Assembly (NCBI RefSeq): GCF_023973145.1
Contig: NZ_CP099546.1
Coordinates: forward strand, 1,550,001-1,614,000
From: Natronosalvus vescus
Lineage (GTDB): Archaea > Halobacteriota > Halobacteria > Halobacteriales > Natrialbaceae
DNA: 64,000 nucleotides
Direction: 5' to 3'
How positions within the stretch are numbered: the first letter of the stretch is position 1; every line of letters begins with the position of its first letter. The notes under the pieces were generated by a model, which was given only the letters and a program-made list of their open reading frames with translations, was not told the DNA's origin and searched no databases. Made by a program: the position numbers and the translations under genes. Positions 33,971 through 37,499 of the stretch are shown one piece after another.

Positions 33971-34138
33971 CGGTCTCACCGATTCGTCTGTTTGCGGATT
34001 TTGTTGTCTCTCGGACACCCACCTGGCGCGCACGCAGTAACCAGTATTAATATAGCATTATAGGATTTACGCGATGACGCTCGAGCAGTGTTGGTTGTAT
34101 GCTAACACGCCACATGATAGTTAAAATTTGGTAAATTC
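33971..34138. other. AT-rich gap holding the left arm of an inverted repeat
   Basis: The 168 bases are clearly richer in A and T than their surroundings. TTAATATAGCATTATAGG at 34047-34064 matches the reverse complement of 37215-37232 at 17 of 18 positions. TAAAATTTGGTAAATT follows shortly before the integrase stop codon. No coding frame is seen. Confidence 0.5.
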
Positions 34139-35179
34139 CTACGAAAGCACGGCGTAGATGTTCGCTTCGTAAACGGATCGAACACGGTCACCCCAGTCGT
34201 GGGTGTAGGTGTCGATCACGTCGCTCGCGACGTCTCCACGCAGGTACTTGACGATCCCTCGATCACCCGTCCGATCCCGGAGGTGTGTCGTGAAAAAGTG
34301 CCGGAAGTAGTGGGGGGTGACGTTCTCTGTCGCCCCACCGCCCCTCCGATACCACCCCCGTTCTCGAGCGTGTCGTTCGACGATATAGCGGACGTCGGAT
34401 GGCTCGAGGCGTTGCCCCCAGCTATCGCCGGTGTCGAGAAATAACGGATCGGCCGGTGAGACGGGGTCAGGTCGGATGGCCAGCCAGGCTTCCAGCACCG
34501 TATCGAGTTCGCTATCGACTGGTATCACCGTCTCGCGCTTCCGTTTGTTCGAGGCGGTTCGCGTTTCGCCGTTGACTGCCACACCGCGGGCCGGTTTCTC
34601 GTCGACGTACAGCGATCGTGGTCTCGCCTCGAGTTGTACCCGTGGCGTCCACTCGCGGTCGATTCCCTCGAGTTCGACGTGCAGATCCCGCAAATCGAGG
34701 TTGCACAGTTCACCGACACGCATCCCCGTTTTGAGAAGGGTGACGATAACCGCTCGCTCGAGCGGATGGCAGATGTCGGCGACGAACGCTCGCATTTCGG
34801 GGATCGAAATCTCCCGTCTGGTAGGGTTGGTGTCGATCGATTCGCCCATCTCCTCCATTACCAGGGACATCGGATTCCCCTCGAACGCCTCCACGCGGGT
34901 CATATAGTCGTAAAATCGATGGACGTAGGAAGCGTACGTTGCGATCGTACTCGAGGCCAGTCGGCCACGCAGGGAGTGAACCCAGGCCATACACTCCCGT
35001 CGGTTCGCCTCCCGGAGGCTGATTCCCGACCCCTCCTCGAGAAAGGCCTCGAACTGCCGGAGGACGCGCTCGTAGGCGTCGATGGTTCGCTCACTCTTGC
35101 CGTGATACTGTTGTTCCTCGAGAAAGTAGGCAATCGGATCCTCGGAAAGCGCGTCACCGTCGAGCGATTCAGTTGCCAT
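34139..35179 (-). CDS. tyrosine-type site-specific recombinase (integrase)
   Basis: 346 residues from the ATG at 35179 (an ATG at 35188 adds three). Residues about 12-105 are a SAM-like core-binding domain (AYFLEEQQYHGKSERTIDAYERVLRQF). The catalytic domain has Arg154 in KTGMRVGEL, His290-xx-Arg293 in TPHYFRHFFTTHL and the likely nucleophile Tyr325 in VIDTYTH. The Lys-bearing hairpin region is long and charged (TASNKRKRETVIPV). It overlaps the upstream DUF5805-type gene. No tRNA gene, the usual attachment site, is near. Confidence 0.92.
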   Translation of the reverse strand: MATESLDGDALSEDPIAYFLEEQQYHGKSERTIDAYERVLRQFEAFLEEGSGISLREANRRECMAWVHSLRGRLASSTIATYASYVHRFYDYMTRVEAFEGNPMSLVMEEMGESIDTNPTRREISIPEMRAFVADICHPLERAVIVTLLKTGMRVGELCNLDLRDLHVELEGIDREWTPRVQLEARPRSLYVDEKPARGVAVNGETRTASNKRKRETVIPVDSELDTVLEAWLAIRPDPVSPADPLFLDTGDSWGQRLEPSDVRYIVERHARERGWYRRGGGATENVTPHYFRHFFTTHLRDRTGDRGIVKYLRGDVASDVIDTYTHDWGDRVRSVYEANIYAVLS

Positions 35180-35561
35180 CGGTATCACCGATGAGTGTGT
35201 ATCCGCCGTGCCGACCGCTGTATCGAATTCGGTTGTTGGTCTGGAGTTCGTCGAGGGTGTTCTCGAGCTGGGTTTCGATATCGTCGCTCACCGCCTCGAG
35301 TAATTGTTCCCACGAGTAGGTGTCGGAACGAAGGAGTTCGAGCACCTGTGTTTCGAGGCCGTTACCCCTTGGGGTAGCGTCCGGAGAACGGGGTTCCTCA
35401 GCGGGCGATTCGAACCCCGCTCGCCCGGCTTGTACCATAGTTCTGATATACTCGCTCTGGCTCATACCGAGGTCGTCAGCGTGTTCCTCCCAGGTAGATT
35501 TCTGGTAGGCTGGAACGTAGGTTCTGACGACGACGGTCTCCGTATCGAGATCGTCATCCAT
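35169..35561 (-). CDS. DUF5805-type small protein coupled to the integrase
   Basis: 130 residues from the ATG at 35561 (MDDDLDTETVVVRTYVPAYQKSTWEEHADDLGMSQSEYIRTMVQAGRAGF). The first 50 residues look like a ribbon-helix-helix or CopG-type DNA-binding unit. The second part (LETQVLELLRSDTYSWEQLLEAVSDDIETQLENTLDELQTNNRIRYSGRHGGYTL) looks like a small winged helix. The gene overlaps the recombinase start by 11 nt. It may be a recombination directionality or expression factor; that is inference. Confidence 0.8.
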   Translation of the reverse strand: MDDDLDTETVVVRTYVPAYQKSTWEEHADDLGMSQSEYIRTMVQAGRAGFESPAEEPRSPDATPRGNGLETQVLELLRSDTYSWEQLLEAVSDDIETQLENTLDELQTNNRIRYSGRHGGYTLIGDTDGN

Positions 35562-36652
35562 GTGAGACTGTCTGCACTCCAGGATAATCAATCTAGCTGT
35601 CTCTCGAGATAAAAGATCTTATCTCTATTCTAAAGGCCACATTATACGGCTAGATGAGTATGCCATTTGAGATTAGCCTCAACAATAGACTTTAATTTGA
35701 GATATGAATTTCAGAGTTGTGAGTATACGAGTTCAGATTATGTTCTTGACCCAAACTGGTAAATCCACTGTTCGAGGGTATCCGTTTCGTGGACGGATTG
35801 AGTTCTGTCGCCAATCATCCTGGTGATCGTGGTCGTTGAATGGAGTGTGACTCTGTCCCGCTCGAGCCGTATCTATCTGAATTTAGACATTGTTTGCTGC
35901 GGGTCGAACGGTAGGGTATCTAGCGTGGTTTTCAGCGGTTCGAATCGGTGACGCATTCGATCGATCGAGCGGTGTGGGCGATCACTGTCTGCGGAGGATT
36001 TGATGTCGTTTTCACGGATTGATTGACCGTTCCGTAACAGTACGGAGACGGCTGCTGGTCATCCCAGAGAACGCCCAGCGTCGGGGGCCTCTACCGATAG
36101 AACGCTGTTGACTCAGTCGGAAGTAACGCACCGTCTATCGATCGGCATCAGCAATTTCCTCCCCGGGTGTGAAACGCATCGAACCAGGGTACTCGATGAC
36201 GCGTCAAAACTCGGTGTATCCACGCGATCTACCCTCAGTCCCGTTCCCCCGTAACGAGCGGTTAGCGTACGACTGAACGGTGTTCTGACGGGCTCAGACG
36301 GCCGTGAGCGCATTCGAAGGGCTTGTCGTCCTGTGGTGGGCCTCAAACCCAATGCCATCGCACGAGAGGGGGTGTGACGTCTCGAGAGTCCGGTCGACAG
36401 ACATTGCTGTGGGTACTTCCACGACTCGATGGTCGAGTGAGTTAATGCACATCACTGTGTCGTTCTCGAGGCAGTCACAGGGGTTGTATAGGCTCCCTTG
36501 ACCGATGTCTCAGGTTCTAAATCGGTCTCGAGGCCAGAGGCCAGCCGAATGATTCGAGAGTAGACTCGAGGACGGTAGTAGTGTGGTTATCGACGGTGTA
36601 GCTCCTCGAGGGCCGTCAGGAACGTACACCGTCTGTGTACGTCGGACGTCGC

Positions 36653-36679
36653 GCTGTTGGTGCTGTTGGTGCTGTTGAT
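36653..36679. repeat. three tandem 9-bp repeats
   Basis: GCTGTTGGT occurs twice and GCTGTTGAT once in direct succession, followed by another GCT. On the minus strand the unit would encode a Gln/His run. Slippage in non-coding DNA is the simplest view. Confidence 0.7.
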
Positions 36680-36902
36680 GCTCCCTACCTCGTCGCTGTG
36701 TAGCCATTACTTTTCGAAGCGTTACTCCTGGGGTGTTGTGCGTGGTACGTGGGTTCTTCCTTCTCGACTTATGCGATCTCGAGGGACAGCCACCTGGACG
36801 GTCTGCCGAGGATGACCCCGAGACCGGGTGTGTCGCCATTCGTGCTGAGTTGTGGGGGAGCGACGACGGCGCGGGCAGGAAGTGGTTGAGCCACAGACGT
36901 AG

Positions 36903-37232
36903 TACATACCTCGTCGCGAGCTCACGTCCGTCAGTGTGCCACTCGGTTCTACCGTGTCGGTACCCACCCAGCGAGAACCCTTCCCTGTCGCCGTGTTTCA
37001 CAGTGAGGGGGAGGAGCTTCCGTTCGATAGTCGGGAGTTCGATAATCGGAAGGACTGTGTCTACCGGTCAGCCAGCAGCGTCGTCGACGAGGCGTGGTTC
37101 GGCTTCCAACCTACCGACTATGAATCGGGTGATATTCGAGCAATTCGTCGAAATATGGGTGAAATATGCACGATAAATAATTTCATACTGGGGTTCGATG
37201 TCGACCACATGAACCCTATAATGCTATACTAA
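36903..37232 (+). pseudogene. possible gene fragment, unrecognised
   Basis: From the codon after a TAG at 36900-36902 the frame is open to a TAA at 37230-37232. No good start is seen; a GTG at 36936 is possible. The middle part (HSEGEELPFDSREFDNRKDC, then SSVVDEAWFGFQPTDYESGDIRA) has protein-like composition, and the preceding frame (36733-36900) also carries plausible segments, as if a frameshift separated them. I cannot name a family. Codon use is less GC-rich than in neighbouring genes. Confidence 0.3.
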
Positions 37233-37499
37233 ATCGAATGGTGTCGGTATCGAGACTTCTCTGGGCAAATCGGGATACTGGGGCGTTCTTGAGCCCGAAT
37301 CTGGCGTTATCGAGTCGGGACACCCGTCAGTGTGTCGAGGTTGCAGACGGCGAAGCCGATACATCCTCTAGGTACGCATACATGAGGCTTCGAAGTCGTG
37401 GCGAGGTGTATTGAAGCGGGTTGTGAGAATTCCTCGTCTGCGCTTCGAAGTCAACGCCTGCAGATCCGAGACTGTTGCGTTGCGTTCAACCGTCCCTAA

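Follow-up and report, generated by a model that had tools for sequence, protein, structure and literature searches.

In the P1 Cre/loxP system of plasmid multimer resolution, one site lies just upstream of the recombinase gene. The haloarchaeal plasmids described below also carry one site just upstream of a recombinase gene, whereas the recombinases concerned are of the pR1SE1 family, and a role in resolution would be ascribed to them by analogy. The Xer/dif systems, including archaeal XerA/dif (PMC2958812) and XerS/difSL (PMC2731167), are closer to the chromosomal locus analyzed here: both comprise a core tyrosine recombinase and a site of approximately 28–30 bp with inverted arms, located about opposite the main origin, and, as in XerS/difSL, the recombinase gene and the site are adjacent. 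The haloarchaeal locus differs from Xer/dif in that it has two inward-facing sites instead of one, with additional pairs elsewhere, in that the centre of the site is 7 bp and not 6 bp, and in that the recombinase scores under the XerA cut-off and has a DUF5805 partner. A dif site has about 28 bp, with two 11-bp inverted arms and a short spacer, to which the imperfect dyad of the haloarchaeal site may correspond. Since the score is below that cut-off and the site is not single-copy, we have not filed the haloarchaeal system as XerA/dif.

Two further systems show a partial likeness. In the dif modules of Acinetobacter (pdif/xrs cassettes; PMC11705084), genes lie between inverse Xer-type sites whose centres mostly differ. 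In contrast, the haloarchaeal pair is chromosomal, keeps its place across the class and is built around the recombinase, and the haloarchaeal plasmids carry a lone site. The likeness is one of layout, and modules may or may not be exchanged in haloarchaea. The invertible regions of phiCh1 and phiH (Int1; cited in PMC8371274) also combine a haloarchaeal tyrosine recombinase with inverted sites, but they are viral and have been described as phase variation, whereas in the present case the orientation does not vary within genera and the genes belong to the chromosomal core. A review of Haloferax volcanii replication from 2020 listed 12 xerC/D-like genes, considered dif sites merely possible and left a role in termination still to be determined (PMC7776575). 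The paper describing archaeal dif makes no mention of haloarchaea (PMC2958812).

Two inward-facing sites in the window

The window is a 64-kb stretch of the Natronosalvus vescus chromosome, and all positions below refer to it unless a chromosome coordinate is given. The preliminary description had claimed a 17/18 inverted repeat enclosing a recombinase, its partner and AT-richer DNA, and both parts of this claim were confirmed. The 18-mer TTAATATAGCATTATAGG is located at 34047–34064 on the plus strand and its inverted copy, with one mismatch, at 37215–37232 on the minus strand; between them lie the integrase gene, the DUF5805 gene and approximately 1.6 kb of gene-poor DNA. When up to three mismatches were allowed, these two were the only matches in the 64 kb, and 100 dinucleotide shuffles gave none. 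With up to two mismatches, the 3.84-Mb genome contained no third copy.

The 18-bp arms are the best-matching portion of two longer sites of about 30 bp. A consensus of this length, nATTnGATATAGCGnnATAnGATTTATnnGT, was obtained from the flanks of the integrase genes of relatives, where the sites occur on both sides and face inward. Its arms, TATAGC ... GATTTA, are imperfect inverted repeats on either side of an asymmetric 7-bp centre, and this combination of dyad arms and asymmetric centre resembles the design of tyrosine-recombinase crossover sites. In the window, the left candidate recombination site, which is proximal to the integrase, spans 34044–34076 on the plus strand (GTATTAATATAGCATTATAGGATTTACGCGATG; PWM score 38), and the right candidate site, which is distal to DUF5805, spans 37203–37235 and reads GATTTAGTATAGCATTATAGGGTTCATGTGGTC on the minus strand (PWM score 40). 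The centre of the left site (34057–34063) is ATTATAG, and that of the right site (37216–37222) has the same letters. A scan of the window at a score of at least 13, with a site model built from relatives and the Natronosalvus vescus genome itself, showed exactly these two sites, and the reversed control showed none.

The association of the site with the recombinase gene was examined in 96 haloarchaeal loci, namely those carrying this integrase with enough flanking sequence. They came from Natronosalvus, other Natrialbaceae, Haloferax, Halorubrum, Haloarcula, Halosimplex, Halovenus, Halorhabdus and others. The results showed that: (i) an inward pair surrounded DUF5805 and the integrase in 83 of the loci, compared with none for the reversed motif, and (ii) in 88 loci a site followed the integrase at a distance of up to 700 bp on its downstream side, compared with three for the reversed motif. 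Over 2.05 Mb of loci, the matrix gave 272 matches with a score of at least 18 against 12 for the reversed motif; as the matrix was trained on part of the scored loci, the fair test of these numbers is provided by the reversed control and by the untrained loci (most of L125–L183). The strict site pattern had 13 matches in 2.9 million viral contigs.

It had been stated beforehand that absence of the arms from relatives with the same integrase pair, or their wide occurrence as ordinary TATA-type promoter sequence, would refute the interpretation of the preliminary description. The literal 18-mer is indeed missing from the relatives, and a single one of 60 has its 14-mer core, but the longer site is present in them. 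With the sequence-only site model, approximately ten sites were found per genome, mostly in inward pairs, and not hundreds, which does not fit ordinary promoter sequence. The link between the arms and the recombinase is supported, and in relatives the arms have the look of recombinase sites. It was also considered whether the two sites of one genome evolve in concert; there was no excess of similarity in 26 pairs and a slight excess in 72 pairs, which can be explained by the shared ancestry of near relatives, and the idea was rejected.

The enclosed recombinase and DUF5805 genes

The integrase gene (34139–35179, minus strand) encodes an XerC/D-like tyrosine recombinase with the Pfam domains Phage_integrase and Phage_int_SAM_1. 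Its catalytic residues are R153, K211, H289, R292 and Y324 (numbered without the start methionine); all five are conserved across 109 homologues, whereas the H/W position of the R-K-H-R-H/W-Y catalytic set is occupied by G/D. The best NCBIfam model was XerA with 109.6 bits, which is under the cut-off of 220, and the scores against XerC (98.8 bits; cut-off 335) and XerD (88 bits; cut-off 330) were also below threshold. Among the proteins of 13 related genomes, none reached the XerA cut-off. Of 61 genomes, comprising Natronosalvus vescus and its relatives, 58 have the integrase, including 50 of 50 good genomes, and the chromosomal type is almost absent from plasmids. The integrase is a core, XerC/D-like gene of the chromosome and not of plasmids, with its catalytic residues retained. 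The locus of the integrase pair, designated locus A, has the same neighbours across several families.

In one genome (G023; L078, 5892–9551), a single pair holds a decayed integrase and an intact, different one in opposite orientations. The decayed integrase is 83% like that of the window in its best piece and the intact one 59%, and the arrangement looks as if one integrase type had replaced the other.

The DUF5805 gene (35169–35561, minus strand; Pfam DUF5805) overlaps the start of the integrase gene, and DUF5805 is upstream of the integrase at nearly all loci. The N-terminus of the protein is ribbon-helix-helix-like, with a NikA-like match below threshold and a conserved MSQSEFVRxMVQAGRR motif in the alignment, and the C-terminus is winged-helix-like in an AlphaFold model (mean pLDDT 74, pTM 0.37). 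A Foldseek search with this model gave nothing significant; an N-terminal fragment of NikA was among the weak matches. We found no paper on DUF5805 in a literature search. DUF5805 may act as an accessory factor of the recombinase.

The gene-poor, AT-richer DNA inside the pair (35562–37202) extends from DUF5805 to the right site. It has a lower G + C content and is devoid of a convincing open reading frame, and the length of this interval differs among genomes. Neither the interval nor the locus as a whole had a structured RNA match in Rfam, and a search for tRNA genes in the window gave none.

Site pairs, segment orientation and plasmid sites in the haloarchaea

Additional pairs were found on the chromosomes. 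Of 37 neighbouring sites separated by less than 7 kb in eleven genomes, 33 faced inward. The pairs of Natronosalvus vescus are at approximately 272, 1009, 1584 (the pair of the window) and 2917 kb, with a weaker one at 3592 kb. Four more chromosomal loci (B–E) have inward pairs with the same neighbouring genes in several genera, the protein names at these loci having been assigned by reading the sequences. The pair adjoins an Orc/Cdc6 paralogue at locus B, is near DHH phosphoesterase, panE and nifU at locus C, surrounds RIO2 kinase at locus D, and has a PduO-type gene on one side and glycine dehydrogenase genes on the other at locus E. Two genomes (G003 and G016) have at locus E a short pair (0.55–0.65 kb) that holds a small zinc-ribbon gene but lacks an integrase. 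Several inward pairs contain no recombinase, the gene content at some pair loci varies, and the interiors of the small pairs have no sequence in common.

Individual arrangements were also recorded. In Natronosalvus vescus, the inward pair at locus E (L066; C1:2916924–2920963) holds a paralogous second integrase, 52% identical to the first; an inward pair of 0.79 kb with no clear gene inside (L086; C1:1009537–1010326) is near an Orc/Cdc6 paralogue and is found at the same place in related genera; and the weaker inward pair (L068; C1:3592231–3594643) has inside it a gene of the ParA family and a small partner gene, in a plasmid-partition-like manner. In two genera (L082 and L084), a lone site is next to hflX at a distance of about 15 kb from the integrase pair, and in several other genomes an additional site was seen about 30 kb from that pair.

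Locus C was compared between two Natronosalvus genomes, G002 and G007. Their similarity is about 90% as far as the outer end of a site, after which G002 has approximately 9 kb extra. The junction is no more than 2 bp away from this outer end (L107; G002 C1 near 529.4 kb), and no recognisable site was found at the far end of the insert. Since this is a single event and the far end has no recognisable site, the junction supports recombination there but does not prove it. The insert corresponds to a stretch found elsewhere in locus C of Natronosalvus vescus.

The preliminary description had also suggested that the arms may be the ends of a small element of unknown class. On a reading of this kind, the sites would be terminal inverted repeats of transposon-like elements or cassettes, with the small pairs elsewhere as their non-autonomous copies, a reading to which the inward pairs of 0.5–6 kb with varied content at several loci, the second integrase pair of Natronosalvus vescus and the 9-kb difference beginning at a site edge would all conform. 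It is nevertheless highly improbable in view of the conserved neighbours of locus A in several families, the recurrence of pairs B–E beside the same genes in different genera, and the unrelated interiors of the small pairs. A transposon would be expected to have near-identical ends and to vary in its insertion position, whereas the pairs are at conserved loci. Transposon or MITE ends were rejected, as the small-pair interiors are unrelated and the loci are syntenic; the integrase in all 50 good genomes is likewise at variance with the suggestion.

Another suggestion had been that the recombinase could flip the segment. The pair adjoins g40-g41-mbl in several families, and both orientations relative to g40-mbl do occur across the class: in 30 loci it is the integrase side that is turned towards g40, and in 26 it is the DUF5805 side (two genomes counted twice). 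On the integrase tree there were five changes of orientation, compared with a mean of 17.8 after shuffling, and the strongly supported branches alone force two; on the g40 tree there were seven. The orientation is clustered by clade and uniform within genera, as in the Haloferax species. The left and right centres are identical in three of 72 pairs, that of the window included, and different in 69. Thus, since the orientation is constant within genera and the centres are rarely identical, frequent flipping is not borne out. Reversal of the segment at this place is, as reconstructed from the trees, recurrent but rare, with about 5–7 flips in the class.

These results bear on whether the locus is an invertible DNA switch, in which the integrase would often flip its own segment and alter the expression of flanking or enclosed genes, as in Hin- or Fim-like phase variation. 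The inverted sites around a recombinase gene, the two orientations in the class and the identical centres in the window would be expected of such a switch. However, the few, clade-clustered flips, the constancy among Haloferax species and the differing centres in 69 of 72 pairs indicate that the segment is not a phase-variation switch, and we regard this explanation as improbable. Unequal centres block exchange in tyrosine recombination. A block of this kind is described for Acinetobacter (PMC11705084), and it would explain the rarity of the flips, the centres being usually unequal and inversion thus normally blocked. As the centres are identical in the genome of the window, inversion of 34044–37235 is predicted to be possible there. 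Some flips could alternatively have arisen by duplication in opposite orientation followed by loss (compare the decayed and intact integrases of G023).

On plasmids, single sites were observed. Matches to the model led to twenty further loci, in many of which a single site directly precedes the gene of a different tyrosine recombinase. In the family that includes the integrase of plasmid pR1SE (F20; pR1SE1 type), most members have a site approximately 150–260 bp upstream, reading into the gene, and pHALXA03, pNPA70 and pR1SE, of which 49–50 kb each were scanned, have one site each with a score of at least 14 upstream of the F20 gene. One site and one recombinase per plasmid resembles a multimer-resolution system, suggesting a comparable role. 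In Haloferax mediterranei pHME132 and pHME505 (L258 and L259), the site is 3.7 kb from, or downstream of, a pR1SE1-type recombinase, in contrast to its upstream location in most plasmids.

The position of locus A was determined in 25 genomes with an apparently single-contig chromosome. The locus was 0.30–0.50 chromosome lengths (mean 0.44) from the best Orc1 gene and at least 0.40 from it in 23 of the genomes, Natronosalvus vescus being an outlier at 0.30; the genomes in this sample are related, and on some chromosomes a second Orc gene is near locus A. Locus A is usually about opposite the Orc1 origin, where dif would be expected. Loci B, C and D also keep a constant distance from Orc1, so the position of locus A may be inherited and not selected.

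The conserved inward polarity, the location of locus A about opposite Orc1, the pairs adjoining an Orc/Cdc6 paralogue and surrounding ParA, and the several pairs with no recombinase inside could also be accounted for if the sites were bound by DUF5805 or another protein without recombination, as polar replication barriers, loop anchors or operators for which an inward pair is required. We consider this unlikely: the lone sites of plasmids accompany other recombinase genes at an almost constant distance, a recombinase is inside the inward pair in the 83 of 96 locus-A cases, and the dyad arms with their asymmetric centre have the design of a crossover site. As to the anchors of haloarchaeal chromosome loops in particular, a review on the subject gives no such motif, and this candidate was set aside.

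A candidate resolution system of the haloarchaea

We consider it likely that the arms are inward-facing crossover sites of the Xer/dif or Cre/lox type and that the enclosed DUF5805–integrase operon encodes a class-wide chromosomal recombinase that uses them. On the sequence evidence, the site of about 30 bp makes a strong candidate for what in haloarchaea would correspond to the bacterial dif/lox sites of chromosome and plasmid resolution. We infer that the recombinase, possibly aided by DUF5805, would carry out strand exchange between identical sites on different chromosome copies and would in this way resolve dimers or cointegrates, as Xer/dif and Cre/lox do. Inversion between the two chromosomal sites would normally be blocked by their unequal centres and be a rare event, which the equal centres of Natronosalvus vescus would permit.

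Several observations argue against the Xer reading, among them the G/D at the catalytic H/W position and the score under the XerA cut-off. The sites are paired at several loci, some of them far from the terminus, whereas dif is single-copy; two sites per chromosome have no obvious need in dimer resolution; and it is unusual that different recombinase families share one site. In Haloferax volcanii, four of the 12 xerC/D-like genes can be deleted according to a review (PMC7776575), and the integrase described here may or may not be among them.

More tentatively, the sites might form a class-wide network of convergent pairs with unequal centres, composed of a terminus pair with its own recombinase, conserved satellite pairs and single plasmid sites. 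If so, chromosome and plasmid multimer resolution would be combined with a natural system of cassette exchange or rare inversion, and the network would represent a chromosomal archaeal form of dif modules.

The presence of the site in most of the class, tied to a core chromosomal recombinase and to other, plasmid-borne recombinases, makes the question of a haloarchaeal dif testable, and the results supply one candidate gene, one partner and one site for this purpose. They also raise the question of why there are inverted site pairs with unequal centres, and they are relevant to the resolution of circular replicons in polyploid cells without FtsK.
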